Virus record (IMG/VR): IMGVR_UViG_3300033155_000086
Span: 1-24,428 of that record
Reading direction: 5' to 3' (one strand)
DNA: 24,428 bases
DNA from: a virus
Made by a program: the position numbers and the translations under genes. The notes under the pieces were generated by a model. The model searched no databases and was not told the DNA's origin. It saw only the letters and a program-made list of their open reading frames with translations. This document shows, piece by piece, positions 296-24,247 of the stretch (the stretch's first letter is position 1; each line of letters starts with the position of its first letter).

Positions 296-735
296 AATTA
301 GTAGCTAGTGACATTAAAGAGTTAAACTTACTTAAGCATTATAGAATTATTAGAAAGTGGGCATGCAAAAATAACAACTTAACTGATGCTGATTTAGAAG
401 TTTTAATTTATTTAGACTGTATGGATCTTTTTAGTAAGTATGATTTTGAACAAGGTGTTTATTCTTACAGTTGGGATAACAGAAGATGGAGTAGGTTATT
501 AAAAGATGGTTGGATAACTGTGTGGAGACATAGAAACAGAACTACACAAAAATATAATATATATAAAGTATCATTTAAATGTAAACAACTTATAATGAGA
601 ATTTATAGAATCATGCTAGGCGAAGATGATATACCAACAAGTGCTAGAAGAAACAAATTAATAGCTGGAGATACATATACAGACAAAGTAATGACAAAAG
701 CTATATATAACGTAAACAAAGACAAACAAAGATGA
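292..735 (+). CDS. hypothetical protein, possible MarR-like winged helix
   Basis: The 147-residue basic protein has a helical N-terminal half (residues 8-50, with LTDADLEVLIYLDCM at about 30-44). A segment like the recognition helix and wing of a winged-helix domain follows: RLLKDGWITVWRHRN, then a Tyr-rich strand and a final helix (KCKQLIMRIYRIMLG). The order of helix, LLKDGWI turn, arginine-rich wing and C-terminal helix resembles MarR-type DNA-binding proteins, but no residue proves it. The tail after residue 115 is polar and basic. It overlaps the co-chaperonin and the next gene by ATGA, so it belongs to one polycistronic unit. It could be a late regulator or a nucleoid or virion DNA-binding protein. 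Confidence 0.6.
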   Translation: MKLVASDIKELNLLKHYRIIRKWACKNNNLTDADLEVLIYLDCMDLFSKYDFEQGVYSYSWDNRRWSRLLKDGWITVWRHRNRTTQKYNIYKVSFKCKQLIMRIYRIMLGEDDIPTSARRNKLIAGDTYTDKVMTKAIYNVNKDKQR

Positions 736-1169
736 GCAACAGTCCATTAAAACTTTTCGGAAGCAGAAGAAGAAGAAAAAGAAGAAAAGAAAAGCTAGCT
801 GCAATGAATCCAGCTGAAAGAGCCGCGTACCAAGCAAGAAAACAAAGCTTAATGAACTCTCTTGGTGGTGGAATAGGAAATATAGCAGCTAATAGTTTAA
901 CTAATTTTGGAGGAACTAATAACCAAGGAGATGTTCAGTCACAAATTTCTGAAATAAATTCTAAACTTGATACACTTACTGGTGGTGGTAATACTGTTGG
1001 TAACAATACAATACAAACACCTGGTGGTGATTTATCAAATCCATCAGTTATAGATCCAATGCAAGCTGAAGAAACAATGATGGGCGGAGACGATGGAGTT
1101 GTAGACGGAAGTGCTTTAGCTAAAATTAGAAAATATAAAGGAAGTTGTAAAATGAAAAGAAATAATTAA
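732..1169 (+). CDS. small basic/glycine-rich putative virion protein with SPL motif
   Basis: I do not recognise a family for this 145-residue protein. It opens with MSNSPLKLFGS followed by a dense Arg/Lys run (residues 12-22) and an Ala/Lys helix (KLAAMNPAERAAYQARKQ). A Gly/Asn-rich linker comes next, then a short predicted coil (SQISEINSKLDTL) and a low-complexity Gly/Asn/Thr stretch. An acidic segment (residues 113-126) and a basic end (KIRKYKGSCKMKRNN) close it. The arginine-rich head could bind nucleic acid. It is the first of a run of tiny proteins sharing Ser-Pro-Leu/Phe near the N-terminus. Its ATG overlaps the preceding TGA. Confidence 0.65.
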   Translation: MSNSPLKLFGSRRRRKRRKEKLAAMNPAERAAYQARKQSLMNSLGGGIGNIAANSLTNFGGTNNQGDVQSQISEINSKLDTLTGGGNTVGNNTIQTPGGDLSNPSVIDPMQAEETMMGGDDGVVDGSALAKIRKYKGSCKMKRNN

Positions 1170-1185
1170 TTAATAAATAAATATT

Positions 1186-1404
1186 ATGCATCACGGAAAA
1201 TATGATCCTTCAATGGAAAAATTAAAACCTGGAACTAAAGTAGGTATAGTAGGTGAATCTCACGTATGGGACGGACCTTTAAATCAGGTAGGTAGAGCAC
1301 ATGGGATGGGTTCAAGTTCAGGTATAACTGGCATGGAAGTATTAAAAGCACCTGCAAAAGGTGGTGGTATGAATCCAGTGTTAAAAGCACAAAGTAAAAT
1401 ATAA
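1186..1404 (+). CDS. hypothetical 72-residue Gly/Lys-rich protein
   Basis: This short protein begins MHHGKYDPSMEKLKPGTKVG and contains several glycine turns, a WDGPLNQVGRAHGMG segment and a basic C-terminus (PVLKAQSKI). No family is recognised, and no membrane segment or cysteine is present. The start is preceded by an A/T-only leader with no Shine-Dalgarno box. The last base of its TAA stop is the first base of the next ATG, indicating termination-reinitiation coupling. It sits in the mini-protein cluster and is probably a minor virion or assembly-associated protein, by context only. Confidence 0.6.
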   Translation: MHHGKYDPSMEKLKPGTKVGIVGESHVWDGPLNQVGRAHGMGSSSGITGMEVLKAPAKGGGMNPVLKAQSKI

Positions 1405-1604
1405 TGAGATCTCCATTTTATAAAGAAGGATTTCCTGAAATTAAACCAGAGAACAAAGGTAAATTTACAGCATGGGCTAAAAAGAACGGTTTTAAAGACG
1501 CTTGTTCTGCTGCATCATCTGTAATGTCAAGTAAAGATAAATATAGCGAAGAAGTTGTTAAAATGGCTAACTACGCTAATAACTTTGGTTGTAAAAATAA
1601 ATAA
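1404..1604 (+). CDS. small SPF-motif protein with helical domain and paired Cys
   Basis: The 66-residue protein starts MRSPFYKEGFPEIKP and continues into a compact, probably helical domain (KGKFTAWAKKNGFKDACSAA, then SSKDKYSEEVVKMANYANNFGC). The two cysteines, C34 and C63, flank the last helices and could be close in space. The pattern of a basic first helix, then DKYS, then a helix ending KMANYANNFG is one I associate with small proteins found repeatedly in marine and Bacteroidetes phage genomes. Their function is unknown to me. It is coupled to the preceding gene (TAATG). A structural or packaged role is inferred from location and basic charge. Confidence 0.65.
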   Translation: MRSPFYKEGFPEIKPENKGKFTAWAKKNGFKDACSAASSVMSSKDKYSEEVVKMANYANNFGCKNK

Positions 1605-1608
1605 TAAT

Positions 1609-2004
1609 ATGGCATTTAAAATAAAAAACTTTTACGGATCACCTTTGTATAGCTCTAGTCCTGATAGACCTTTCACAACTGGAGACACGGAAAGAAAAGA
1701 AAAAAAATTAGACAAAACTATAAAGCAATTATCAGAACCAATGTCTGATAAGAAAAAAGCTAGAAAAGAAAAGAAGTTACTTAAAACAGCTGATCAATTA
1801 GAAAGAAATGCTAGTGGAGATAAAACAACTCCTTTTTTAAATATAAGATCTTGTAAAGATATTCAAGATGAAATAAATAAAAAACAAGCTGAGATAAAAA
1901 AAATGAGAGATTTAACTAAAAAAGATAAAAAAGTTCGTAACTGGGATAATTTATCTGATCAAGTTGATGGTCTTAGAGAAGAATTAAAAAACTGTAAAAA
2001 ATAA
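1609..2004 (+). CDS. MAFK/SPL-header coiled-coil protein
   Basis: The 131-residue reading starts at the ATG at 1609, which follows the previous stop by four bases. The same frame is open to an ATG at 1555, but that would overlap the previous gene, and the 1609 start gives the MAFKIKNFYGSPLYSSS header shared with the gene at 2359. After the header, residues 28-68 are almost pure Lys/Glu helix. A Pro-containing linker leads to a second helical hairpin (residues 82-129) bracketed by C82 and C129, which could form a disulfide. The protein is strongly charged and has no membrane segment. It is a probable virion-associated or assembly protein of unknown function. Confidence 0.65.
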   Translation: MAFKIKNFYGSPLYSSSPDRPFTTGDTERKEKKLDKTIKQLSEPMSDKKKARKEKKLLKTADQLERNASGDKTTPFLNIRSCKDIQDEINKKQAEIKKMRDLTKKDKKVRNWDNLSDQVDGLREELKNCKK

Positions 2005-2008
2005 AAAT

Positions 2009-2356
2009 ATGAGTTCACCATTTTCAAAAAAATTCCACGCGTACGGTAAAGATCCTGTAAAAATGTTAGGAGATTTAAATAAAGACGGTAAAATGTCAGG
2101 TTGGGAGCAAGCAAGACAAGATAAAATAGAAGCTAACTCACCTAATAAAATGCTTTCACCATTTAATAAAAAAGAACCAGCAATGGATCCATGCTCAGCA
2201 GAGTTTGACTACGAAGTAGCAACAGACGCTGGTATGACAGCTAAGCAAATAAGAGAAGCTAGAAAAAAATGTGCTGGAAAAACAAAACCAAAACAAAACG
2301 TTAAACAAGTTCGCGAAGATGAAGATCAAGTTAAAGCGGCTGCAGCAAGAGCATAA
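2009..2356 (+). CDS. SPF-motif small protein with EF-hand-like loop
   Basis: The 115-residue protein opens MSSPFSKKFHAYG and repeats the motif internally (NKMLSPFNKKEP, residues 47-57). Residues 22-33 read DLNKDGKMSGWE, which fits an EF-hand/dockerin calcium loop: D at position 1, N at 3, D at 5, G at 6, a hydrophobic residue at 8 and E at 12. A helix (EQARQDKIEA) follows, as in an EF-hand. C62 and C88 flank a further helical segment (SAEFDYEVATDAGMTAKQIR), and the tail is charged and Ala-rich. Calcium binding is predicted from the motif and not proven. It lies four bases after the previous gene. Confidence 0.65.
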   Translation: MSSPFSKKFHAYGKDPVKMLGDLNKDGKMSGWEQARQDKIEANSPNKMLSPFNKKEPAMDPCSAEFDYEVATDAGMTAKQIREARKKCAGKTKPKQNVKQVREDEDQVKAAAARA

Positions 2357-2358
2357 TT

Positions 2359-2607
2359 ATGGCATTTAAAATACCTAATTTTTATTCAAAATCTCCATTA
2401 CATGGAAGTTACTATAACCCAAAAGGTGAAACTTATATATCTGAAGTTGGTATGATACAAGATGCGGCTAATGCAACTATAGATGCTAAAAATAAACAAC
2501 AAAAAGATTTTAAAAACATTGGGAAAATGATAGACGGACAATTATACACGCAAGAGATGTATGATTCACAATATAATCCACCAAAAGAAGAAAAAGAAGA
2601 AAAATAA
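2359..2607 (+). CDS. MAFK/SPL-header small protein
   Basis: The 82-residue protein begins MAFKIPNFYSKSPLHGSYYN, closely matching the header of the protein at 1609 (MAFKI-x-NFY, then SPL), while the rest is unrelated. The body is a helical stretch (SEVGMIQDAANATIDAKNKQ), then a short GKMIDGQLYTQEMYDSQYN segment and a Glu/Lys tail. The middle resembles short adaptor or cargo proteins, but I do not recognise a family. The start lies two bases after the preceding stop. The reuse of one header on different bodies argues that the header is a functional tag, possibly for capsid incorporation. Confidence 0.65.
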   Translation: MAFKIPNFYSKSPLHGSYYNPKGETYISEVGMIQDAANATIDAKNKQQKDFKNIGKMIDGQLYTQEMYDSQYNPPKEEKEEK

Positions 2608-2608
2608 A

Positions 2609-2863
2609 ATGGGACACAAAGGACATTACGGAGAATACACAGGTAACGCTAAATGGTCAAAAAACCATGCGGATACTAAAGTAACAAAATCTAATTACAA
2701 AGCAACTAAAAAAGACGATGAAGCTCATATGACGTATCTTAAAGAAGATATTAAATATGATAACAAACATGGTCATAGTGATAAAAACATGACAGCTGAT
2801 GAAAAACATATTTCAAGATTAGCTGGAGACTTAAAATACGATAATAAAAAATTTAAAAAATAA
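2609..2863 (+). CDS. small His/Lys-rich protein with internal repeat
   Basis: The 84-residue reading starts at ATG 2609 (MGHKGHYGEYTGNAKW). An upstream ATG at 2561 in the same frame would add a poly-Lys extension that is only the out-of-frame end of the previous gene, so it is rejected. The C-terminal half holds two copies of a roughly 15-residue unit (HMTYLKEDIKYDNK and HISRLAGDLKYDNK), about 30 residues apart, both ending in DxKYDNK. It is rich in Lys, His, Asp and Asn, with no hydrophobic core segment long enough for a membrane. Function is unknown; it may be nucleic-acid or metal binding. Confidence 0.6.
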   Translation: MGHKGHYGEYTGNAKWSKNHADTKVTKSNYKATKKDDEAHMTYLKEDIKYDNKHGHSDKNMTADEKHISRLAGDLKYDNKKFKK

Positions 2864-2867
2864 AACT

Positions 2868-3191
2868 ATGTACGATAAAGGAGCACCAACTAAAAACCTA
2901 AACAAAGGTTACAAAAGCGAATCAGTTAAAACTGAAAGATCAAATTTAATGAATGACAATCCTGTAGCTAAAGATGCTAGCGGAGGAAGATCATGGATGT
3001 CAAAACATTCACAATCAAAAATGGGTGGATCACCTCTAACACACAAAGGAGATCCTACACATGGTTTTAATCAAGGCTCAACTGGAGATGGTAAAGATAA
3101 AGAAAGAAGAAAAGCTCATCTAAAAAAAGTAAAACACGGAAGAAATGGTGAACACTCACGATTTGTAGGAGAAAACAACCGTAAATCATAA
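2868..3191 (+). CDS. small basic low-complexity protein with SPL motif
   Basis: This 107-residue protein looks disordered and very rich in Lys, Ser, Gly, His and Asn. It contains GGSPLTHKGDPTHGFNQG at about residues 53-70, an internal version of the Ser-Pro-Leu motif of neighbouring proteins, and ends in a strongly basic stretch (KERRKAHLKKVKHGRNG). No domain is recognised. It is the last gene before a short gap carrying a promoter-like element and an A/C-only leader. A DNA-associated or packaged virion role is possible, inferred from charge and position. Confidence 0.6.
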   Translation: MYDKGAPTKNLNKGYKSESVKTERSNLMNDNPVAKDASGGRSWMSKHSQSKMGGSPLTHKGDPTHGFNQGSTGDGKDKERRKAHLKKVKHGRNGEHSRFVGENNRKS

Positions 3192-3252
3192 CAGTAGAGA
3201 ACTGTATAAAACTCGCAAAACATAAACACAAACAAAACAAAACACAAACAAA
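3191..3252 (+). promoter_or_regulatory. promoter-like element and A/C-only leader before decoration-type gene
   Basis: The gap contains ACAGT-AGAGA-ACTGT (3191-3205), a 5-bp inverted repeat, running into GTATAAA at 3204-3210. The TATA block is 48 bases before the ATG, the same spacing as a similar block before 14769. From 3224 to 3252 the sequence contains only A and C, which predicts an unstructured mRNA leader suited to strong translation without a Shine-Dalgarno box. Promoter activity is inferred. Confidence 0.4.
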
Positions 3253-3639
3253 ATGGCAAAATTTATTAAATTCAGCGTAAGAAACTCAGCCGCTGTACAA
3301 CCATTAGGACCAACAGAAAACATCTTAGTAAATGTAGAAGACATTGCAAGAGTTCAAGCAACTGGAGCAACAGGAGCTAACGCTAAAACAGCTATAATTG
3401 GTTTAACTGGTAGAGCTGCTCAAGCTGCAGGTTACCAAAAGCTAACTTTAACAGTATCTACTAGTCTTTCAGCTGCTGTAAATCCAACAATTGTAAATGG
3501 ACAAAACAACCCTATTGTTGCTGCTATCCGTTCTGCAATGACTGCTAATCCAGGTGGAGTTGTAGCTTCAGCTCAATTAGGACTTGATCAAGCTGCTACA
3601 CCAGTTCAAATGTACTGGAGAACTGCTGCATTCGCATAA
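3253..3639 (+). CDS. probable head decoration or minor structural protein
   Basis: The 128-residue protein is Ala/Thr/Val-rich with little Lys: MAKFIKFSVRNSAAVQPLG, then ENILVNVEDIARVQATGATG and alternating beta-type segments, ending QMYWRTAAFA. The pattern of an N-terminal strand, a VNVEDI segment and then beta and Ala-rich helices resembles small abundant structural proteins in related marine phages. Its codon use is biased towards GCT/GCA, GTA and GGA and looks like the capsid gene, unlike the lysine-rich neighbours, suggesting high expression. The dedicated upstream A/C leader supports this. Decoration of the capsid is the best guess; another minor virion protein is possible. Confidence 0.6.
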   Translation: MAKFIKFSVRNSAAVQPLGPTENILVNVEDIARVQATGATGANAKTAIIGLTGRAAQAAGYQKLTLTVSTSLSAAVNPTIVNGQNNPIVAAIRSAMTANPGGVVASAQLGLDQAATPVQMYWRTAAFA

Positions 3640-3647
3640 TAATCAGC

Positions 3648-3803
3648 ATGAGATCTAGAGGATTAGGAGATGACATAGAGAAGTTTACTAAAGCTTCTGG
3701 TATCAAAAAACTGGTTGATAATGTATCAAAAGGTTTAAACATTCCCTGCGGCTGTCAAAGTCGTAGGGATGCTTTAAACAAATTACTACCTTATAAAAAA
3801 TAA
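3648..3803 (+). CDS. 51-residue CxC mini-protein
   Basis: An ATG at 3648 opens a 51-residue frame ending in TAA at 3801-3803, exactly filling the space between neighbours. The product begins MRSRGLGDDIEKFTKASGIKK, continues with an amphipathic helix (LVDNVSKGLN), then a PCGCQSRRDALNKLLPYKK tail. The CGC pair beside an arginine pair suggests a metal-binding or disulfide element. Small proteins with the same GLGD-x-IEKFTKA and CGC-xxRRD-xLN layout recur, from memory, in marine phage genomes, which supports it being a real gene. Function is unknown. Confidence 0.65.
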   Translation: MRSRGLGDDIEKFTKASGIKKLVDNVSKGLNIPCGCQSRRDALNKLLPYKK

Positions 3804-3804
3804 T

Positions 3805-4113
3805 ATGGCTTTTAAATTAAACAACCCTCCATATAATACAAATAGCACACCTATTTACAATGTACCAATGGAAGATGGAGTTATGGGTAAAGCTAACAAT
3901 AATGGAACTATTATATTAAATAATAAATTAGATCCTTCAGAATGTGAAAAAGTTATAAATCACGAAATGATACACATAGACCAAATGAAAAGAGGTGATT
4001 TAGATTATGATGATGAAAACGTTTATTGGAAAGGTAAAACATATTCAAGAGCTGATATGGCGGAAGGTGCTAAAAACTTACCATGGGAGGCTGAAGCATA
4101 TAAAAAAGCATGA
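3805..4113 (+). CDS. putative HEXXH zinc metallopeptidase (mini, MAFK header)
   Basis: The 102-residue protein starts MAFKLNNPPYNTNSTPIYN, a variant of the header at 1609 and 2359. It contains a helix with HEMIH at residues 53-57, the HEXXH zinc-protease signature: H53 and H57 as ligands and E54 as the base. A glutamate that could be the third ligand is in NLPWEAEAY (E95 or E97). At about 100 residues it has only a catalytic core, with no signal peptide. The ATG of the holin-like gene overlaps its TGA, so the two are coupled. It could be a lysis endopeptidase, a virion maturation protease or an inactive structural relative. Confidence 0.7.
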   Translation: MAFKLNNPPYNTNSTPIYNVPMEDGVMGKANNNGTIILNNKLDPSECEKVINHEMIHIDQMKRGDLDYDDENVYWKGKTYSRADMAEGAKNLPWEAEAYKKA

Positions 4114-5456: not shown

Positions 5457-5673
5457 TATAAGAAAGATTAGTATTGGATCTGATTATAAAAATGATGCAA
5501 TGCATTACTCTGTAGGTCAAGAGGTTTATGGAGGTCATGAAATTTCTCATATTTTATTTGAAGACTCTGATAACTCTTATAACATACATATAAAGAAAAA
5601 CAACGAGGTATTGCCATGGAAAAAGTTTAACTCTAACATGGCTATATCTGTTGAGTATGATCTTAACTATTAA
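5446..5673 (+). CDS. small conserved beta protein of unknown function
   Basis: The 75-residue reading starts at ATG 5446 (MQNNIRKISIGSDYKNDAMH) and overlaps the preceding stop by 11 bases. The same frame is open up to 5404, but that would extend inside the upstream gene by another 42 bases and lose the natural N-terminus. The protein alternates strands and turns (KISIGSDYKN, YSVGQEVYGGHEISHILFE, YNIHIKKNNEVLPWKKFN) and ends with a strand (MAISVEYDLNY). The IRKISIG-DYKNDAMHYSVGQ core is highly conserved, from memory, among related marine phages. Function is unknown. The last base of its TAA stop is the A of the next ATG. Confidence 0.6.
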   Translation: MQNNIRKISIGSDYKNDAMHYSVGQEVYGGHEISHILFEDSDNSYNIHIKKNNEVLPWKKFNSNMAISVEYDLNY

Positions 5674-6278
5674 TGAAAAGCATATACGATTTTATTATAC
5701 AACCATTAGGTTACAAGTATAGTAACACAGTTAAAATATCTGGAGTAGACGTTGTTATTAATACAAAAATAGAAAACTGGAAGTTTGTAAATAGACTTGC
5801 TACGGTAATAGAAACTCCTTTAGCTTTTAATAGTAAAATTAAAAAAGGAGATATAGTTGTTATACATCAAAACGTTTTTAGAACTTTTTACGACATGAAA
5901 GGTAAAAAGAAAAAAAGTAGGTCTTATTTTAAAGATGATCTTTATTTTTGTGCTATTGACCAAGTGTATTTATATAAAAATAAAAAAGGTTGGCACAGTT
6001 TTGGTGATAGGTGTTTTATAAAACCTATAAAAGACAATGATAGTTTAACGCTAGATAAAGAGCAAAAGCTTATTGGTATATTAAAATATGGCAATAGTTC
6101 ATTAGAAGCGCTAGAAATTAACCAGGGAGACTTAGTAGGTTATACACCTAATGGTGAATGGGAGTTTTTAGTTGAAAATGAGCGTTTATATTGTATGAAA
6201 TCAAATGATATTGTTATAAAATATGAATACGAAGGAAACGAAGTTGAATATAATCCAAGCTGGGCAAATAGCAGTTGA
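5673..6278 (+). CDS. possible GroES-fold protein
   Basis: The 201-residue protein is all-beta in appearance. Residues 44-66 (VIETPLAFNSKIKKGDIVVIH) and 150-183 (NQGDLVGYTPNGEWEFLV, then LYCMKSNDIVIKY) both resemble the GroES core, where GD-x-V precedes a strand, a loop and a final S-(D)-I strand. A basic loop (KGKKKKSRSYF, 76-86) may occupy the place of the mobile loop. The resemblance is by eye and weaker than for the gene at 35. If real, the phage has two GroES-type proteins flanking the small-protein block. It could instead be an unrelated beta-barrel virion protein. Its 3' end overlaps the following gene by 56 bases. Confidence 0.55.
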   Translation: MKSIYDFIIQPLGYKYSNTVKISGVDVVINTKIENWKFVNRLATVIETPLAFNSKIKKGDIVVIHQNVFRTFYDMKGKKKKSRSYFKDDLYFCAIDQVYLYKNKKGWHSFGDRCFIKPIKDNDSLTLDKEQKLIGILKYGNSSLEALEINQGDLVGYTPNGEWEFLVENERLYCMKSNDIVIKYEYEGNEVEYNPSWANSS

Positions 6279-11131: not shown

Positions 11132-12346
11132 ATGTCAGAAATCAAAACAAATGAACCTGTAAAGCAGGAAGGTGACTTTAAAATAAAGTCTAAAAAACCT
11201 AAGCAACTAGGTAACAAAGAACAAGAAATTGTAAAAGTAAGTTTAAAAGAACCTTTGGTAGAAATACCAGATGATGTTGTTAAAGTTACAGTACCTAAAG
11301 AAGCTTTAAAACAAAAAGAAGATGCCATTCAAATCGGAGAAACAAAGGAGGTATCTGTGGAAAAACCATCCGGAGATAGCGCAGAGGTGGGAGAACCTGT
11401 ACAAGAGTCCAACGAGACTGCTGAAGGGTTTTCTCCAATCAAAGAAGTAACTGAAGAAGAAGTTAAGAAAGTAGAAGCAGAAGTAAAAGAAACTATAAGA
11501 GATGAAAAAGTTTTAGGTAAACAACTACCAGAAAACATTGAAAAACTAGTTTCATTCATGGAAGACACTGGTGGAACTATAGAAGATTATACTAGATTAA
11601 ATGCCGATTACACTAATGTTGATGAAGATACTTTATTAAAAGAATATTACAAAAAATCAAAACCTCATTTAAATTCAGAGGAAATAGATTTTATAATGGA
11701 AGATAGCTTCCAATATGATACAGATCTTGACGAAGAGCGTGACGTCAAAAAGAAAAAACTCGCTAAAAAAGAAGAGATTGCAAAAGCAAAAAACTTTTTA
11801 GAGGAAACGAAGAATAAATATTACGACGAAATCAAGTTGAGACCCGGCGTAACTCAGGACCAACAAAAAGCTATGGACTTTTTTAATCGCTACAACAAAC
11901 AGCAAGAACAAGCTGAGCAACAACACGATGTATTTCAAAAAAATACTAAAGAATTATTTAATAACGAATTCGAAGGTTTCGATATCAATGTTGGAGATAA
12001 AAGATTTAAGTATAATATTAAAGATGTAGATAAAGTTGCAGAAAACCAATCAAACATTAACAACCTAGTCGGGAAGTTCCTGGACGCAGAGGGCAATGTT
12101 ACTGATACAAAAGGTTATCATAAAGCTATATACGCTGCTGATAATGTCGATAGAATCGCAACTCATTTTTATGAGCAAGGAAAAGCCGACGCAGTTAAAG
12201 ACGTGGTGAACAAGTCTAAAAACTTATCACCGATAAAAGCTAGAACCCAACAAGGTGAAGTTTTTGTAAACGGCTATAAGGTTAAAGCTATTTCTGGTGC
12301 TGATTCTTCAAAATTGAAAATCAAAACAAGAAAATTTAACAATTAA
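11132..12346 (+). CDS. scaffold-like acidic assembly protein
   Basis: The 404-residue, highly charged protein lies between portal and capsid genes, where scaffolding proteins are encoded. The N-terminal third is an acidic, Pro/Val/Lys/Glu-rich disordered region (LKEPLVEIPDDVVKVTVPKE). The middle is helical coiled coil (residues about 195-270, with KKKKLAKKEEIAKAKNFLEE). A folded acidic segment with HKAIYAADNVDRIATHFYE and a basic end (NGYKVKAISGADSSKLKIKT) follow; a basic C-terminus would bind the capsid lining. Scaffold identity comes from position and composition, not a recognised signature. Several stretches use C- or G-ending codons (TCC, GTG, ATC, GAC) far more than neighbouring genes. 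It shares its AT leader with the gene at 13895. Confidence 0.65.
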   Translation: MSEIKTNEPVKQEGDFKIKSKKPKQLGNKEQEIVKVSLKEPLVEIPDDVVKVTVPKEALKQKEDAIQIGETKEVSVEKPSGDSAEVGEPVQESNETAEGFSPIKEVTEEEVKKVEAEVKETIRDEKVLGKQLPENIEKLVSFMEDTGGTIEDYTRLNADYTNVDEDTLLKEYYKKSKPHLNSEEIDFIMEDSFQYDTDLDEERDVKKKKLAKKEEIAKAKNFLEETKNKYYDEIKLRPGVTQDQQKAMDFFNRYNKQQEQAEQQHDVFQKNTKELFNNEFEGFDINVGDKRFKYNIKDVDKVAENQSNINNLVGKFLDAEGNVTDTKGYHKAIYAADNVDRIATHFYEQGKADAVKDVVNKSKNLSPIKARTQQGEVFVNGYKVKAISGADSSKLKIKTRKFNN

Positions 12347-12359
12347 AAATTAAACAATT

Positions 12360-13451
12360 ATGAGTTTAAATCCACAATTTGGTGCTATTGTTCCAAGTCC
12401 TATCCAAACTCCAAGTCCTTCAAACTACTTAGTATTTGATGGCGCGGCTGGCGGAAACTTCGCGCAACAATATTTACCAGAAATTTATGAACAAGAAGTA
12501 GAGCGTTATGGAAACAGAACGTTATCTGGCTTTTTAAGAATGGTTGGCGCTGAAATGCCAATGACATCTGATCAAGTAATTTGGTCTGAACAAAACAGAT
12601 TACATATATCTTACGATAATTGTAGTGTTGGAGCTGCTGCTGGTGGTAACAATCAGTCAGTTGTAACAATTGGTGGCGGTACTACTGCTATCAACGTTAT
12701 ATCTATCAATGATACTGTTGTACTTTTAGATCCTGCAACAGGAGCTGAAGCAAAAGGTATCGTTTTAGCAAGAGTTGCTGGTGCTGGTGGTGTTGGAACT
12801 GTTACAGTTCAACCGTTTGCTAACACATCACTTGCTGCGCAAGGGATAACTGCTGGTTCTGCAACAATTAAAATGTTTGTATATGGTTCTGATTACACAA
12901 AAGGAACAACTATTGGAGCAGGAGTAGGAAACTCTGCTGCTAGAATATCTGTTGATCCTTCTTTCACACAATTTTCTAACTCACCAATTATCATAAGAGA
13001 TCAGTACGTTGTTACTGGATCTGATATGGCACAAATCGGTTGGGTTGAAGTTGCTACTGAAGATGGAGCTTCTGGATTCTTATGGTATCTAAAAGCTGAG
13101 TCTGAAACTAGACTACGTTTCGAAGATTACTTAGAAATGGCAATGGTTGAAGGTGAACTAAACGCAAATGCTGGTGGTGCTGCAGGATCTTATGACGCTG
13201 CTAACTTACCAGGTACACAAGGTTTATTTGCTGCTATTAGAGCAAGAGGAAACGTAGAAGTAGGATTTACTGCTGCTGCTGGACTTGATGACTTTGATGC
13301 AATACTTAAAAACCTAGATACTCAAGGAGCTATTGAAGAAAACATGTTATTCTTACAGAGACAAACATCTCTTGATTTTGACGATATGTTAGCTTCTATC
13401 TCTGGTTACTGCTTTCGGTTTATTCGAAAATTCAGAAGAAATGGCACTTAA
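12360..13451 (+). CDS. major capsid protein, N-terminal part (frame interrupted)
   Basis: This 363-residue reading is the bulk of the major capsid protein. The N-terminal MSLNPQFGAIVPSPIQTP and the segment QQYLPEIYEQEVERYGNRTL form the N-arm and first helix. A long beta/Gly-rich domain follows, then LKAESETRLRFEDYLEMAMV as the spine helix. The last 14 residues (YCFRFIRKFRRNGT) are basic and do not look natural. In the +1 frame the sequence continues GLFENSEEMALNLGFSGFRR into the rest of the capsid fold at 13441. The frames must join between 13393 and 13451. Joining at TTT|C (13413-13416) gives a single protein of about 483 residues. Codon bias towards GCT, GGT and ACT fits very high expression. 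It may be mutant, mis-sequenced or programmed to shift. Confidence 0.8.
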   Translation: MSLNPQFGAIVPSPIQTPSPSNYLVFDGAAGGNFAQQYLPEIYEQEVERYGNRTLSGFLRMVGAEMPMTSDQVIWSEQNRLHISYDNCSVGAAAGGNNQSVVTIGGGTTAINVISINDTVVLLDPATGAEAKGIVLARVAGAGGVGTVTVQPFANTSLAAQGITAGSATIKMFVYGSDYTKGTTIGAGVGNSAARISVDPSFTQFSNSPIIIRDQYVVTGSDMAQIGWVEVATEDGASGFLWYLKAESETRLRFEDYLEMAMVEGELNANAGGAAGSYDAANLPGTQGLFAAIRARGNVEVGFTAAAGLDDFDAILKNLDTQGAIEENMLFLQRQTSLDFDDMLASISGYCFRFIRKFRRNGT

Positions 13452-13812
13452 CTTAGGTTTCTCTGGTTTCAGAAGAGGTTCTTATGACTTCTACAAAACT
13501 GACTGGAAATACTTAAACGACGCTTCTACAAGAGGTGCTATCGTTGGTGTTAATTCGATCGAAGGTGTATTAGTTCCTGCTGGAACTTCTACAGTATATG
13601 ATCAAATCTTAGGTACTAACATTAGAAGACCTTTCTTACACGTAAGATATAGAGCTTCTCAAGGTGACGACAGAAGAATGAAATCATGGTTAACTGGTTC
13701 TGCAGGTGGAGCATTTACTTCAACTCTTGATGCTATGGAAGTAAACTTCCTATCTGAAAGATGTTTAGTAACTCAAGCTGCTAACAACTTCGTTTTATTC
13801 CAAGGATTATAA
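13441..13812 (+). CDS. major capsid protein, C-terminal part in the +1 frame
   Basis: This reading (123 residues from the internal ATG) is the C-terminal continuation of the capsid gene at 12360, not an independent gene. The frame is open upstream to 13393, and those codons encode TAFGLFENSEEM, which runs smoothly into MALNLGFSGFRRGSYDFYKT. Later segments (LNDASTRGAIVGVNSIEGVL, NIRRPFLHVRYRASQGDDRR, FLSERCLVTQAANNFVLFQG) carry the beta strands expected of a capsid P/A domain end, with the same codon bias as the N-terminal part. If translated separately from 13441 it would be a non-functional fragment. A hairpin terminator follows 20 bases downstream. Confidence 0.78.
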   Translation: MALNLGFSGFRRGSYDFYKTDWKYLNDASTRGAIVGVNSIEGVLVPAGTSTVYDQILGTNIRRPFLHVRYRASQGDDRRMKSWLTGSAGGAFTSTLDAMEVNFLSERCLVTQAANNFVLFQGL

Positions 13813-15521: not shown

Positions 15522-15800
15522 ATGGCATTAATAACTGAAACAAATCAACAATATTATCAAGGCGCACAAGGCTTTAGAGGTACTGGTAATGCTCTTACTA
15601 TTACAACAACTTTTGATACTGATTTAGTATTTGGTAGTTACAATCCAGCGGTTGCTGAATATGCTTTAAATAACTTTAAAATATATACTAGCACTACAGG
15701 TTTTCCAGGAAGCTGGAGTGAATATCTCTTAGCTTACACTGTTGTCAACAACGCTATTACATTCACAATTAAAAACATTAGACGGTGGTCAATATGCTAG
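15522..15800 (+). CDS. connector protein, N-terminal part (frame interrupted)
   Basis: The 92-residue reading MALITETNQQYYQGAQGFRG, then VFGSYNPAVAEYALNNFKIY and a beta-rich stretch, ends in an unnatural basic tail (KNIRRWSIC). In the +1 frame the text continues KTLDGGQYASTIAEEAIGDA and runs on into the protein at 15742. The frames must join between 15733 and 15800. A run of five A residues at 15771-15775 is the simplest site, because reading it as four gives ITFTIKTLDGGQYAST without a break. The joined protein would be about 396 residues, a believable connector or ring protein. It may reflect sequencing error, mutation or real +1 frameshifting. Confidence 0.7.
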   Translation: MALITETNQQYYQGAQGFRGTGNALTITTTFDTDLVFGSYNPAVAEYALNNFKIYTSTTGFPGSWSEYLLAYTVVNNAITFTIKNIRRWSIC

Positions 15801-16713
15801 CACTATAGCAGAAGAAGCAATAGGCGATGCTGTTGAAGAAAATTATGGTACATATCAATATGTTAAGTTAAAAGACATTATAGACAACTATATGGTTGGT
15901 TACGTAGGTGATGGTAAAATAATACAAAATGCTAAAAAATCTGATGTATTGTTTTTTGCAAAAAGATCTTTACAAGAATTTAGTTACGATACTTTAAAAA
16001 GTATTAAATCACAAGAGCTTACAATACCAGAAAGTTTATCATTAATAATGCCGCAAGATTATGTTAATTACGTAGCCTTATCTTGGATAGATTCATATGG
16101 TGTTAAAAGACCATTGTACCCAAACAACAACTTAACTATAAATCCTTACGGAAAGTTATTACAAGATGATAGAGGTGTACCAACTCAAGATAATTTTGGT
16201 GAAGACTTAGAAGGAACATCGTTAACAGTAGAGAGATGGAGGGAAACAAACGCTAATAGACTATTAAACAATCAAGCTTTAAATGAACTTGATAATCTTG
16301 CTTACGATGTTTATAACAATGATTTTGGATCAGGACCTTGGAACTGGGGAAGACTATACGGGTTAGATCCTCAATACTCTAATGTGAACGGTTGGTTTGG
16401 TATAAACGAAAGAGATGGTAAGTTTACTTTTTCTAGTAATTTAGTTAACAAGTTAATTGTATTAGAATACATATCTGATGGACTAGCTTATGACTTAGAT
16501 ACTAGAGTACCTAAAATGGCGGAAGAGGCTATGTACATGAGTATATCATATAATCTATTAGCTAACAGATCTGGCACGCCAGAAGGTATGGTTGCTAGAT
16601 TTAAAAAAGATAGAAGAGCAGCACTTAGAAATGCTAAAATAAGATTATCTAATATTAAACTTGATGAAATAGTTCAAGTGATGAGAGGTCAATCTAAATG
16701 GATTAAACACTAG
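15742..16713 (+). CDS. connector/ring protein, C-terminal part in the +1 frame
   Basis: This 323-residue reading has no natural start. Its first codon is a TTG that opens out-of-frame text, and the real continuation begins near KTLDGGQYAS from the gene at 15522. The body contains a helical ring-type segment (TYQYVKLKDIIDNYMVGYVG, VLFFAKRSLQEFSYDTLKSI), a conserved LIMPQDYVNYVALSWID motif and a C-terminal helix bundle (RVPKMAEEAMYMSISYNLLA). The order and location suggest a head-to-tail adaptor or ring, probably an analogue of crAss-like ring proteins, though that is inference. It ends with TAG, the only clear TAG terminator in the window apart from fragments, six bases before the nozzle gene. 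Confidence 0.72.
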   Translation: MSTTLLHSQLKTLDGGQYASTIAEEAIGDAVEENYGTYQYVKLKDIIDNYMVGYVGDGKIIQNAKKSDVLFFAKRSLQEFSYDTLKSIKSQELTIPESLSLIMPQDYVNYVALSWIDSYGVKRPLYPNNNLTINPYGKLLQDDRGVPTQDNFGEDLEGTSLTVERWRETNANRLLNNQALNELDNLAYDVYNNDFGSGPWNWGRLYGLDPQYSNVNGWFGINERDGKFTFSSNLVNKLIVLEYISDGLAYDLDTRVPKMAEEAMYMSISYNLLANRSGTPEGMVARFKKDRRAALRNAKIRLSNIKLDEIVQVMRGQSKWIKH

Positions 16714-19700: not shown

Positions 19701-20928
19701 TATAGGTAATGGTAGTGTGTGGAAATTAACTTTTAGTAACAATTTAGAAGGCACTAGCTCTGGAGACGTGTTAACTTTTACTCCTACTAATGATAATATT
19801 AATTTTGATTGGGTTACTATACCTAACAATTTATCTATAATGGAAACTGATCCTGTAGAATCTGATTTAGATATATTCTGGGAAACAACAACAGAAGGCT
19901 TAATAACAGAATTAAATCAAGCTGTATTAGGCGGTACAGCAGATGCTGTTTCAATTAGCGGTTTTAATACAGATTTATTTAAAGAATCTTTAGCTCCTAA
20001 TGGAAACATGTTTACTACTCCGTTTAGTTTATTAGATCAGTTTAGTAACACTATAGTTTATGCAAACACAACACCACCTCAATTACAATTAAATAGCGTT
20101 TATGATTTTAATGGTAATTTAGTAGACGATCAAAATCCTTCTGAATTATTTGAACTAGAGCATGTTAGTAGTACAAACACGTATCAAATAAAAACTAAAG
20201 TTCCTTTTTATTATAGTAATCAAGCGGCAACAAATCAAACATATAGATTTGATTTTGAAGTAAATTATAACGGAACGCAAAACTTTATTACTCAACAACC
20301 AGTATCTTTAATAAACGTTGCTCCAGATATAACATCAGGATGTACTAACTCAACTTATATTCCTGGAACTAGTGGAGGAGGAAACGGTACTATAACTAAT
20401 CTACAAGGATTAAACGGCGCGAGTACTTTAAACGTAGGTTTTGATGAAATAGCTTGGAAAGATTTAAGTTGGAGTATAGTTGTTACTGGTACAGGAAGCA
20501 CTACTTATAATCCACCAACAGGAGTTATATTATTAGATCAATCAAAAGTTAATAAGTTTTGGAACGGAAGAGTGTATTTTGCAGGAGGTGATCCTCCTAG
20601 TACAATGCCTGATGGAACATACACTGTATCTGTTACGTTACAAGATGCTGGAGCTTTAACAGACACATGTAGTTTTGTTTTAACTTTAGATAGAACACCT
20701 TGTTTTACTTACAAGTTTACATACACTGGAAGTGGTAATACTATTGGAGCTACTTACACTGGTTGTAGTGGTGAAAGTGAAGTTGTGAGTTTTGTTGACC
20801 CACCAAGTAATACTTTTCCAGGTTATACAACAGCTTGCGCTCCAGATAACACAACAGCTTTAACTAATGCTGGTTTTGTAAAATTAGCTTTAGACAGCAC
20901 AGATCCAGCAAATGTGTGTAACACTTAA
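16720..20928 (+). CDS. large tail nozzle/muzzle-like protein with repeated beta modules
   Basis: This 1402-residue protein is the largest in the window. Residues 8-52 (FIKGKMNKDLDDRLIPVGEY, then NVGALENVLGN) resemble the start of podovirus nozzle proteins that form a beta-propeller-like tail tube. Embedded in it are four similar beta modules (about residues 226-315, 468-531, 609-677, 929-1024). They have the theme V-x-G-x-G-I/V-P-x-x-T-x-V-x-S followed by a T-rich strand, which looks like insertion of a mobile decoration module. The C-terminus (about 1320-1402) has four or five cysteines (PCFTYKFTYTG, YTGCSGE, TTACAPD, ANVCNT) and may be a separate domain. It precedes a second nozzle-type gene. 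Receptor binding and tail closure are inferred. Confidence 0.68.
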   Translation: MAKVNNNFIKGKMNKDLDDRLIPVGEYRNAINAQVSRSEGPNVGALENVLGNTRVSDLRTISSISDGFTIGYCTDEINNRVFVFITNNTVSKYDPAKKHAILVYSGITNATTLLVQGAFLNFSTLNPITGVNILENLLYFTDNRNQPRVINVDDANPTSSTTPSYYTTEDQISVAKYNPYKAIELYRISSDINPTGSFPDGSSLNYETTMFDVVSKYYPDGGLGTLNANITSGDTTMQILKANYQGDLIPGATIAFIDTTSPGTFTPGLSVNGTPLTISAVGNTTNYWTVTAGFGDGGIPAYTAANTEVVFNYNNYYDITYNGDTDFLNDKFIRFAYRFKYIDGEYSIISPFTQECFIPKQDGYFMYKRNPIPNGTPPDFGNLVNTSPELNIQDEEDTFRTTTVDFMENKVNKIILRIPLPTTSNVLARDLKVTEIDILFKESTSNNIRVVENVEVSQLLNQEARATTNGAVSNSETITVDAVSAPIKQGMLVTGAGIVNNPRVVSFNGTTQVVLTSKQTIANNVDLTFGQLTHFEYEYQSTKPYKVLPLSETTRTYDKVPVKALSQEIISNRVVYGNFLDKHTPPSSLDYNVAVSQKLDFNLGTGTATTNGVANSGVTTINTNTVSGSIENGYVVTANVSGIPNDTVVVSFTATSVTISAATTQSIANASVLTFTAPSSVRWNTSTVEYPNSSLKQNRNYQVGIVLSDKFGRSSSVILSDENNSVTFGNQKYLGSTVFSDYLKGDVEALEFPGNSLKILFNNTIPGGATGIYNGDSTSADYNPLGWYSYKVVVKQTEQEYYNVYLPGIMAAYPNEPLKELGKTSHAVLFNDNINKVPRDLVEVGPEQKQFRSSVTLNGRVQNTNTQDVWQNNIQYYPGAFPSLVSVIATDDDLFNGISEIGYVGSPDFYNVNSNPLIARINTPSKQLGVTATPTTATVDANTTGLSSDQVNITISTISPIFTLGGNPAPGNSLFAGQTVTGNGVPDNTTIITSIGNGSVWKLTFSNNLEGTSSGDVLTFTPTNDNINFDWVTIPNNLSIMETDPVESDLDIFWETTTEGLITELNQAVLGGTADAVSISGFNTDLFKESLAPNGNMFTTPFSLLDQFSNTIVYANTTPPQLQLNSVYDFNGNLVDDQNPSELFELEHVSSTNTYQIKTKVPFYYSNQAATNQTYRFDFEVNYNGTQNFITQQPVSLINVAPDITSGCTNSTYIPGTSGGGNGTITNLQGLNGASTLNVGFDEIAWKDLSWSIVVTGTGSTTYNPPTGVILLDQSKVNKFWNGRVYFAGGDPPSTMPDGTYTVSVTLQDAGALTDTCSFVLTLDRTPCFTYKFTYTGSGNTIGATYTGCSGESEVVSFVDPPSNTFPGYTTACAPDNTTALTNAGFVKLALDSTDPANVCNT

Positions 20929-20959
20929 AAACCTAAAAAAATAAGTAATAATAATAATT

Positions 20960-22447
20960 ATGGCTGCAATAATAGAAGTTAAATATTTCAATACATTCCT
21001 TCTTAAGAAAGTAAACAAGTCTGTTACCAACTTTGGTAACATACCTGTATGGAATGGTTCGACTGGAATACCAACTTCAAAAGGCGGTTATCCAAATACT
21101 ACAGCAGACGTGCCAAACAATTGGGTTGTAGAAGAATCTAGAATAAATGGCGGTTATAATAATACATCTGTATCTTTTGGAGCTAAAGCTTATTTAGTAG
21201 AAGAAGAGCCTAATGGAACTGTAAGAGGTAATTCGTTAATATACTCTGGTATATTTAATTCTAGAACAGGAATAAATAGAACAAATGTATTTTCTGTAGC
21301 TGATGATATAGTTAAATCTGTAGACCCAGCTAATGGTTCAATACAAAAACTATATGCAGAAGATACTAATCTAAATATATTTCAAGAACTAAAAATAAGT
21401 AGAGCGCTAATAGATAAAGACGCTATATATTCTGCTGAAGGTGGAGGAACTGTAACTAGTTCTAATTTAGTTATTGGAGCAATACAACCTTATGTAGGTA
21501 AGTTTGGTATAAGTACTGATCCTACTAGCTTTGCTATATATGGTAACAATAAATATTTTACTGATAAAAACAATGGTGTAGTATTAAGAATGTCTGGCGG
21601 AAGTTTAAGTGAAATATCTAACGCTGGTATGATTGATTATTTTAGAGACAGATTAAGTTCTGGTATTAATGTAGGTGGTGTAGATGGAAAAATAATAGGT
21701 GGATATGATATTCATAATAAACAGTATGTAGTTTCTACTCAATTATCTGGAACACAAGAATTTACTTTTGATGGTGGTTACGAAACTCTTTGCTTTGATG
21801 ACTTAGTTCAAGGTTGGACTAGCTTTTTTAGTTATAAGCCAGATCAAATGTTTAGTTTAAGTAATAAGTTTTATAGTTTAAAGTTTGGGTCTCTTTATGA
21901 GCACTATTCTCAAGGCGGAACTAGAAATTTCTTTTATTCTAACAACGCGCCTGGTGGGACAGTAGCAACACCAACATCTATTACATTTGTTTTTAATCCT
22001 AACGTATCACAGTCAAAAACATTTAAAACTGTTAACTACGAAGGTAGTAGCGGTTGGCAGATAAGTAATTTTGATTCAGACAACACTGGTAGAGATTTAA
22101 CTTCAGGAACTACTAACTGGCTTAACTACGATGATAATTCTGCTATCGTATATAGTTATGTTCAAGGAAGATATGATTCTACTTTACCAAACCCATTAAC
22201 TGGAACAGCGGCTGTTTTAAGACCTTTTTATCAAGCAGGTTTTGACAGAAAAGAAAACAAATATGTTGCAAATCTAATAAACTCTAGTACTTCTGCACCA
22301 GGTGAAATTCATTTTGGGTCTGCAATATCAGGTATTAAAGCTTTCTACGCAACAGTAACAATATCAACAGACACTGTTACAAACCCGGGAGGTGAAAAAG
22401 AATTATTCTCTGTTGGTAGTGATTATATAGCTAACAATGGATATTAA
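20960..22447 (+). CDS. second tail nozzle/stabilisation-type protein
   Basis: The 495-residue protein is all-beta and Gly/Asn/Ser-rich. Conserved-looking blocks are NWVVEESRINGGYNNTSVSF, SLIYSGIFNSRTGINRTN, KSVDPANGSIQKLYAEDTN (residues 119-137), IDKDAIYSAEGGGTVTSSNL, YGNNKYFTDKNNGVVLRMSG and LVQGWTSFFSYKPDQM. The spacing of repeated Y/F-x-D/K-x-N-G blades suggests a beta-propeller. From memory, proteins with these exact blocks are widespread in marine Bacteroidetes-type phages, sometimes fused to the domain found in the gene at 16720. It probably forms the distal nozzle or seal of the short tail. The start has an AT-only leader, 31 bases after the preceding stop. Confidence 0.7.
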   Translation: MAAIIEVKYFNTFLLKKVNKSVTNFGNIPVWNGSTGIPTSKGGYPNTTADVPNNWVVEESRINGGYNNTSVSFGAKAYLVEEEPNGTVRGNSLIYSGIFNSRTGINRTNVFSVADDIVKSVDPANGSIQKLYAEDTNLNIFQELKISRALIDKDAIYSAEGGGTVTSSNLVIGAIQPYVGKFGISTDPTSFAIYGNNKYFTDKNNGVVLRMSGGSLSEISNAGMIDYFRDRLSSGINVGGVDGKIIGGYDIHNKQYVVSTQLSGTQEFTFDGGYETLCFDDLVQGWTSFFSYKPDQMFSLSNKFYSLKFGSLYEHYSQGGTRNFFYSNNAPGGTVATPTSITFVFNPNVSQSKTFKTVNYEGSSGWQISNFDSDNTGRDLTSGTTNWLNYDDNSAIVYSYVQGRYDSTLPNPLTGTAAVLRPFYQAGFDRKENKYVANLINSSTSAPGEIHFGSAISGIKAFYATVTISTDTVTNPGGEKELFSVGSDYIANNGY

Positions 22448-22471
22448 AAAATTAATTAAAAAAACAAATAA

Positions 22472-23143
22472 ATGGCAATAGGCGCAATAATAGGTGGCGT
22501 AGCTCAAATCGCTGGAGGAATAATTGGTGGTGGTAAAGCTAGAAGAGCCGCTAGAAGAGCTAGAAAAAAGCTTAAACAAATGAACGCTAAGATGGCTCAA
22601 CTAGAAGCTAATAGGCAGGAAATTATAAATCCTTATGAAGGAGCTGAAAACTTAAGTGACATGATGAGTAACCCTATGGCTAACTTAGGTGTTGCTACAC
22701 AAGCTACTGAAATGCAAATAGAACAAACAGATCAAGCTTTAGCAAATACTTTAGATACGTTAAGACAAACTGGTGGTGGCGCAGGTAGCGCTACTGCATT
22801 AGCTCAAGCTGCTTTACAGTCTAAGCAAAACGTTGCAGCTGGAATAGAACAACAAGAAAAAGCTAACGAAGACAAAAGAGCTGCTGGCGAGCAAAGACTA
22901 CAAGATGCTAAGATAGCTGAAGAAAAAAGAATGCAAAACTTAGATGCTGCTGGAAAACAATTTGTATTTGGTCAAAGAGAACAAAGAGAAATGGGTCAGT
23001 TAAATAGATTACAGGGCCAAATAGATAACATGCAAGGTGTACAAGCTCAAGCTAGTGCTGATCAAACAAGGGCTTTAACAGGAGCAATAAGTGGTATAGC
23101 TTCTGTAGCCGGATCTGCTTTTGGTGGTAACAGTGGTTCATAA
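22472..23143 (+). CDS. probable internal virion (ejection) protein
   Basis: The 223-residue protein has a glycine-zipper N-terminus (MAIGAIIGGVAQIAGGIIGG) followed by a strongly basic helix (KARRAARRARKKLKQM). A long Gln/Ala/Glu coiled coil (residues about 70-195) and a second Gly/Ala-rich hydrophobic end (ALTGAISGIASVAGSAFGG) follow. Two membrane-active glycine-rich ends around a helical rod, encoded right after the nozzle genes, are typical of podovirus proteins packed in the capsid and ejected to form a conduit across the host envelope (T7 gp14-16 or P22 gp7/16/20 style). No signal peptide is needed for that route. The family is not identified. The start has an A-rich leader. Confidence 0.7.
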   Translation: MAIGAIIGGVAQIAGGIIGGGKARRAARRARKKLKQMNAKMAQLEANRQEIINPYEGAENLSDMMSNPMANLGVATQATEMQIEQTDQALANTLDTLRQTGGGAGSATALAQAALQSKQNVAAGIEQQEKANEDKRAAGEQRLQDAKIAEEKRMQNLDAAGKQFVFGQREQREMGQLNRLQGQIDNMQGVQAQASADQTRALTGAISGIASVAGSAFGGNSGS

Positions 23144-23155
23144 TAGATAAATAAC

Positions 23156-24247
23156 ATGGAAAACAAAAATATTCAAATAAATCTTCTAATACAACAAGTA
23201 TTACAAAGCGATAGCATGGCTTATATTCCAGGTTACATATCTTCTGACGTTGATATTGAGTTTAGAATATTAGATAGAGCTTATCAAGATACTGGAAAAT
23301 ATTACGCTAGACTAAAAACAGCTATACAACAAAACAAATGTGGTGATTGTATTGATGTAAACGAGCAAATAAACATACTTGAAAGAGCTCCTGAAGTTTC
23401 TTTAGAGTTTCTTAAAAATGTAATGAGTGAGTTAAGTGTTACTGAAACTGGAAATTATGATCCTAATAATTACTATGGGTTTATGATTGCTAATGCTATT
23501 ATGACTGAAAAACCTGGATTTTCTAGAACTGATGGCTACATGGTATCATTAGATTTATTACAAAACGGTAATCAAGAATTAATGTTTGATGGTCCTTTAT
23601 TTGAAAAACCTTTAATTATAAACAGTTCTGCTTTATCTACATTGCTAGATTCTGATACGTCTATGGTTGTAGAAACGCCAGATATAGACGCTAGTATGTC
23701 TGAATTGTTAGTTCAATCACAATTGTTTTCTCCTGATATGGTAGGTGAAAACGGTAAGTTGTCAGCTGGCGCTAAAATATCAGAAGAGTTTGCTGTAAAA
23801 TTTAATGGTGAACTTGATTATGAAATAATAGATATTGGTGGTGGTAAAGGTAGAAACGTATTAAGATATGATATGGATAAAATTGAAAAAAAATTAAATC
23901 CATTTATAAATGCTGAAGTTGCAGGTATGTTATCAGCTGAGCAAGAAGCTATTGCTGCTTGGAACGTTTACTTATCTAAAGGAACTAGCGTAGAAGAAGA
24001 TGCTCAGATGGTGCAAAACGCTAACGCTGCTGAAAGTTCATGGATATATGAAACTGATTTACCATTGTATCAAGATAAAAAAGAAAGATTTGCTTATAAA
24101 TATAAAGAGTATTTTATCAACAATTATTTAAAACAATTTTTAACAAACAAACTACCTAGTGTAGAAGAAGACGCGGCGGTTTTTGATTTAGAAGAAGCAA
24201 GAAAAGCTAAAGCGGATAAGTTTATGGAAGCTAACCAACAAAATTAA
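23156..24247 (+). CDS. hypothetical virion protein
   Basis: The 363-residue protein starts MENKNIQINLLIQQVLQSDS, with a helical N-terminal half that includes a CGDC pair (residues about 62-65) and LEFLKNVMSELSVTETGNYD. A middle region with repeated Leu-rich segments (LIINSSALSTLLDSD, MSELLVQSQLFSPDMVGENG) follows. A more globular part (EFAVKFNGELDYEIIDIGGG, RNVLRYDMDKIEKKLNPFIN) leads to an acidic/Lys helical end. I recognise no enzymatic motif. It sits between the probable ejection protein and the last, truncated gene, so it is probably part of the internal virion or tail-tip set. Assignment rests on context only. Confidence 0.55.
   Translation: MENKNIQINLLIQQVLQSDSMAYIPGYISSDVDIEFRILDRAYQDTGKYYARLKTAIQQNKCGDCIDVNEQINILERAPEVSLEFLKNVMSELSVTETGNYDPNNYYGFMIANAIMTEKPGFSRTDGYMVSLDLLQNGNQELMFDGPLFEKPLIINSSALSTLLDSDTSMVVETPDIDASMSELLVQSQLFSPDMVGENGKLSAGAKISEEFAVKFNGELDYEIIDIGGGKGRNVLRYDMDKIEKKLNPFINAEVAGMLSAEQEAIAAWNVYLSKGTSVEEDAQMVQNANAAESSWIYETDLPLYQDKKERFAYKYKEYFINNYLKQFLTNKLPSVEEDAAVFDLEEARKAKADKFMEANQQN

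Follow-up and report, generated by a model that had tools for sequence, protein, structure and literature searches.

The stretch of DNA analyzed here, in the following called the window, comprises 24,428 nucleotides (positions 1 to 24,428 of the IMG/VR virus record IMGVR_UViG_3300033155_000086) and contains at positions 732–4113 a cluster of small genes, several of whose products carry the sequence Ser-Pro-Leu or Ser-Pro-Phe (SP[LF], in the following called the tag) close to the N-terminus. The cluster is located on the late strand, downstream of a GroES-like gene (35–295) and of a gene at 292–735, and upstream of the holin gene. The terminase and the portal protein encoded in the window match PHROGs of tailed phages. 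The closest annotated relative of the terminase belongs to an unclassified podovirus from spring water (62% identity); the terminases of Flavobacterium phage Elemovirus (44%) and of the Cellulophaga phages phi13:2 and phi38:1 (37–39%) come next. Judged by the kinship with the Elemovirus and Cellulophaga phages, the probable hosts are marine Flavobacteriia. The genes of the cluster and the gene preceding it are the following:

732–1169, + strand: small basic protein with the tag MSNSPLKLF, SPL at residue 4 (741–749); a tagged relative (L007 2028) has MSKSPLKFF
1186–1404, + strand: untagged cluster member, VGIVGESHVWDGPLNQ family; the homologue in L032 bears MKKSPLK
1404–1604, + strand: p3, 66 amino acids, tag MRSPFYK, SPF at residue 3 (1410–1418), predicted three-helix body related by sequence to a segment of Crassvirales cargo proteins
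1609–2004, + strand: tag MAFKIKNFYGSPLYS, SPL at residue 11 (1639–1647), Lys/Glu-rich and probably coiled body
2009–2356, + strand: tag MSSPFSKKF, SPF at residue 3 (2015–2023); second copy MLSPFNKK, SPF at residue 50 (2156–2164)
2359–2607, + strand: tag MAFKIPNFYSKSPLHGSYY, SPL at residue 12 (2392–2400), start of a recurrent SPLxGxYxS module
2609–2863, + strand: untagged cluster member, His/Lys-rich (MGHKGHYGEYTGNAKWS), with a relative in G004
2868–3191, + strand: internal SPL at residue 55 (3030–3038); family with KSPxKM repeats and a SWMSKHS box
3805–4113, + strand: small HExxH metallopeptidase-like protein, N-terminus MAFKLNNPPYNTNSTPIYN, found in all 18 relatives
292–735, + strand: gene preceding the cluster, orthologue of phi38:1 gp78 (9e-17)

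Five of the 11 small proteins encoded at 732–4113 have SP[LF] within residues 2–28. The expectation from shuffled sequences is 0.07, and not one of 20,000 whole-protein shuffles reached five. All motifs listed in the original prediction (in the genes starting at 732, 1404, 1609, 2009 with two copies, 2359 and 2868) were confirmed in their genes. The SPL of 2868, however, is not an N-terminal tag, as it stands inside the protein in a different context, with KSPxKM-type repeats in the relatives, and should not be counted as one. The bodies behind the tag had been called unrelated; many different bodies indeed share it, but that of 2359 falls into the SPLxGxYxS module which recurs across genomes. 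As the L032 homologue of the untagged protein 1186–1404 is tagged, the tag is optional in the VGIVGESHVWDGPLNQ family.

The cluster is one instance of a clade-wide pattern. A scan of IMG/VR for relatives of the window gave at least 600 stretches, from which 80 loci were retained, and the counts for the clade were obtained from tiled open reading frames (ORFs) on 18 related records of 38–77 kb with the tag definition widened to [ST]P[LFMI]. Tagged small proteins numbered 87 of 539 on the late strand (shuffled mean 16, maximum 27) and 5 of 431 on the early strand (shuffled 8). When only one protein per body family was considered, the tagged fraction was 33.7 of 189 for the late proteins (shuffled 8.0, maximum 16) and 3.4 of 162 for the early proteins (shuffled 4.6), these family counts being approximate since low-complexity proteins cluster imperfectly. 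Without presetting a motif, SPL (26.6 vs 2.4) and SPF (20.3 vs 1.8) ranked first and second among the tripeptides at late N-termini; both were unremarkable at early N-termini. Within 14 reference regions, including those of Elemovirus, phi38:1, phi13:2, six Crassvirales and three pelagiphages, SP[LF] occurred sporadically, in at most one protein each. The observation of the original prediction is confirmed and is much stronger than described there. Tagged small proteins also form a second cluster, behind the giant structural protein of 2,851–3,300 amino acids (728–1557 and 65878–66186 in G001, 20176–24103 in G004).

Most frequently the tag is found at residues 3–4. Another [STN]P[LFIMV] is located within 12 residues of it in 18 of 53 families (shuffled 1.1), the tandem form having the approximate consensus M-x-S-K-F-S-S-P-F-x-x-K-S-P-L. 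Long forms (e.g., MSSKFSSPFMAKSPL) are found repeatedly and on different bodies, and some loci found in a search with one tagged protein match its first 33 residues only. At the nucleotide level 50 tags are encoded by 26 different 9-mers with codons that track the background usage, and within the p3 family the tag serine is written both as TCN and as AGT. This variety shows that selection acts on the peptide and that the gene starts were not copied recently. The p3 tag is present in 50 of 53 homologues despite variable flanks. In the AlphaFold model of p3, the one model made of a tagged small protein, residues 1–9 including the tag have low confidence values, nearly all of them below 50, and three helices come after them; p3 would thus be a small body with a flexible, predicted disordered tag. 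In L056 (4721–5188) two SP[IL]-tagged modules precede the HExxH protein in a single fusion, which shows that tag-bearing modules concatenate. There is strong support for one tag that is shared by unrelated bodies and kept by selection, and the tag is very likely a selected targeting motif.

Body and tag can be separated. Proteins with a DUF6321 body, which is also present in pelagiphages and cyanophages, are tagged in this clade (e.g., MAYVQHRSPFTKLRKTTKG) and start with MPRKxEK or similar in other phages. Where a DUF6321 protein bears the tag, other genes in its neighbourhood tend to be tagged too (Fisher p 0.02; the contigs are related and the test is a modest one). Since DUF6321 bodies are untagged elsewhere and SP[LF] is sporadic in the reference regions, the tag belongs to one uncultured lineage and sits on bodies shared with other phages. 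Searches of Pfam and PHROGs with the small proteins and ten larger tagged proteins returned hardly anything beyond DUF6321, a weak DUF5872 match, PHROGs without known function and metallopeptidases. Three other cluster or tagged families had no match in 50,697 phage records, and a fold search of the PDB with the p3 model gave no match. In the open-licence literature, most subscription papers being outside this scope, we found no paper connecting DUF6321 with phages and none on such a motif.

For p3 a relationship outside the clade could be detected. A tblastn search with a single sequence of the family found the Crassvirales ORFs cr127_1 (2e-6) and cr50_1 (1e-4), and a hidden Markov model (HMM) built from the clade alone matched five Crassvirales proteins with E-values of 9e-13 (cr127_1), 5e-11, 6e-10, 2e-9 (jaberico) and 3e-8. 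The same HMM matched gp45 of phiCrAss001 at 0.004 (best domain 0.026), and a profile including four Crassvirales members, searched against the PDB, aligned with residues 374–424 of gp45 (7qog, E 0.0047). Four of the five matched Crassvirales proteins are large and encoded in the region corresponding to phiCrAss001 gp45/gp46, upstream of large ORFs (annotated as RNA polymerase in two cases), and several matched ORFs sit between the muzzle and RNA polymerase genes. The match in cr50_1 is a stand-alone protein of 72 amino acids, encoded downstream of the portal with a peptidase gene on one side and an acidic ORF on the other. It has been shown that gp45 and gp46 of phiCrAss001 are cargo proteins present in virions by mass spectrometry, gp45 also by cryo-EM, and that residues 425–552 of gp45 bind the portal (PMC10172136). 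These portal-bound residues adjoin the residues 374–424 matched by p3. Judged by these matches, the p3 body shares common ancestry with one segment of the Crassvirales cargo proteins. The likeness to cargo protein 1 is one of sequence and concerns p3 only; in addition both groups of phages have links to hosts among the Bacteroidota. In the Crassvirales, however, the body is mostly part of a large untagged protein encoded beside tail and RNA polymerase genes, whereas here p3 is a tagged stand-alone protein of 66 amino acids encoded upstream of the terminase.

Small Lys-rich proteins are also encoded by the cultured relatives. In phi38:1 gp80, labelled as structural protein in the record, lies two genes after gp78, the orthologue of the gene at 292–735, and Elemovirus gp46 is likewise encoded beside an orthologue of this gene. 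Both proteins, and also phi38:1 gp69 with the same structural annotation as gp80, resemble the tagged proteins in size and lysine content but do not have an SP[LF] tag. Such labels reportedly go back to virion proteomics published in 2013; the record cites another phage, phi18:1, as source.

How could the tag function? We consider it quite possible, though a little short of probable, that the tag is a docking motif which loads small late cargo proteins into the virion. The SP[LF] sequence, frequently in tandem, would be a short linear docking motif at the N-terminus which brings small, fast-evolving, Lys-rich late proteins to a single common partner while the head is assembled, and the recruited proteins would be packed as internal cargo of the podovirus particle and delivered together with the DNA. 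Packaging and delivery into the host are inferred, as is the partner, which could be the scaffold, the portal or the ejection protein. The original prediction had suggested a common destination such as capsid packaging. Because of the cargo homology of p3 and the restriction of the tag to late genes this is the best-supported destination, but the packaging itself is deduced from the genes.

Several observations weigh against this reading. The match to gp45 itself is weak, and the other Crassvirales ORFs, which match strongly, are cargo by gene position only. The tag is absent from phi38:1 gp69 and gp80 and from the Crassvirales cargo proteins, so that tag and packaging have so far not been observed in the same protein. 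Some genes of the cluster have no tag, and the large ejection-type proteins (2,200–3,300 amino acids) do not show SP[LF] at their start. Candidates for the docking partner are the portal and the products of the following two genes:

11132–12346, + strand: scaffold-like protein encoded after the portal, carries GFSPIKEV, an SPI motif that only about half of the relatives have; considered, but not claimed as the partner
22472–23143, + strand: probable ejection protein, candidate docking partner, homologous to phi38:1 gp99 (annotated virion structural protein)

Homology of the protein encoded at 22472–23143 to gp45 was not detected. We also considered the sequence SP[IL]QE[VI] (SPIQEV) in the variable linker of the scaffold as a shared docking or cleavage site and rejected it, as only about half of the 51 scaffolds compared contain it and its context is that of an acidic helix start.

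We found no described system that matches, in agreement with the original prediction, except for the analogous capsid-targeting sequence (CTS) of T4. In T4 such sequences bring small basic internal proteins with fast-diverging bodies into the head (PMC9026906). Like the CTS of IPI-III and Alt, the tag is a short N-terminal peptide common to small basic proteins whose otherwise unrelated bodies diverge and turn over quickly. It differs from the CTS in the motif, which is often tandem, and its role in packaging is a proposed one. A prohead protease of the S78 or S49 type was not found in 12 records, some of them fragments, in searches with working controls; for S77 the search was uninformative since its control gave no signal. 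The cleavage site [LI]xE was not enriched after the tag either (9 of 53 vs 7.4 shuffled). Given these differences, the tag would work like a CTS but is not classed as one. Somewhat more tentatively, we suggest that a large clade of marine phages possesses a modular, apparently unprocessed capsid-loading code outside the T4 type, consisting of the often tandem SPL/SPF motif at the N-terminus of interchangeable small injected proteins, among them a stand-alone segment of Crassvirales cargo.

The tag could instead recruit late proteins to a factor of the infected cell outside the virion, such as a lysis complex, the phage GroEL/GroES, a membrane site or a host protease adaptor. We regard this as unlikely; it is nevertheless the main rival, since the small annotated structural proteins of the cultured relatives are untagged. 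The position of the cluster between the phage GroEL/GroES genes and the holin and the many tagged bodies without known relatives would fit to such a function, but the cargo homology of p3 and the further tagged cluster directly after the giant structural protein point to the particle. More improbable is that the tag marks a site of proteolytic processing, at which the small proteins are trimmed by the HExxH protein encoded at 3805–4113, as the original prediction had considered, or by an unseen prohead protease. T4 internal proteins are indeed trimmed as well as targeted (PMC9026906), and the HExxH protein is encoded in the same cluster, has invariant histidines and glutamate in the HExxH motif and, with about 100 residues, resembles the minigluzincins (abylysin, jannalysin, selecase). 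The top PDB matches of its model are minigluzincin zymogens and selecase, but with Foldseek E-values of 0.09 at best these are non-significant. Its presence in 18 of 18 genomes makes co-occurrence no test of a processing role, and these genomes include G009 and G015, which do not encode SP[LF]-tagged small proteins. Since the tag often starts at residue 3, trimming there would take off almost nothing, and the searches for S78/S49 proteases and for [LI]xE sites reported above likewise speak against processing. Cleavage by the HExxH protein is therefore unsupported.

The small proteins could also be nucleoid-like condensers of DNA with the tag as a DNA-binding motif of the SPKK/SPXK type. Tagged proteins contain 13.7% lysine as compared with 7.6% in early proteins, and KSPxKM repeats occur in the 2868 family. 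After [ST]P, however, the tag has L (33) or F (24) and only four times K, so that a basic residue is rare there, and a hydrophobic third residue at a fixed N-terminal position does not suit such a motif. This explanation is, if anything, slightly less probable than processing. Finally, 5′ ends of genes, i.e., ribosome site and first codons, could have been copied mechanically between neighbours, giving a peptide without function. Repeated starts (MAFK, MAYxQ, MSSPFQ) and the loci matching a query over the first 33 residues only are reminiscent of copying, which is nonetheless very improbable and already largely refuted by the differing codons, TCN and AGT serines included, by the strong retention of the p3 tag across diverged phages, by the tandem copies and by the absence of the tag from early genes.

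In addition, some features of the window outside the cluster should be mentioned. A second GroES-like protein of 201 amino acids (PHROG 13932) is encoded near the terminase at 5673–6278, besides the one at 35–295, and relatives have a GroEL gene upstream of the cluster as well. The probable major capsid protein (12360–13812) is present as two overlapping ORFs of 363 and 123 amino acids; as G001 and others have about 500 amino acids in a single ORF, a frameshift in the contig is likely. A second apparent split (92 and 323 amino acids) is seen at 15522–16713; the corresponding ORF of the relatives is undivided and has about 410 amino acids. The small Cys-containing protein encoded at 3648–3803 (CGCxSRRDALNKLLPYKK) belongs to a stand-alone family kept in the relatives and in MW202828 (52% identity).

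Should the tag indeed load cargo, it would provide a sequence handle on the injected proteins of uncultured marine phages, which are abundant and whose small late genes otherwise resist annotation, and possibly a packaging tag for placing chosen proteins into phage particles. Peptide-addressed loading of cargo would then reach beyond the T4-like phages, and small orphan genes would be tied to the cargo system of the Crassvirales.

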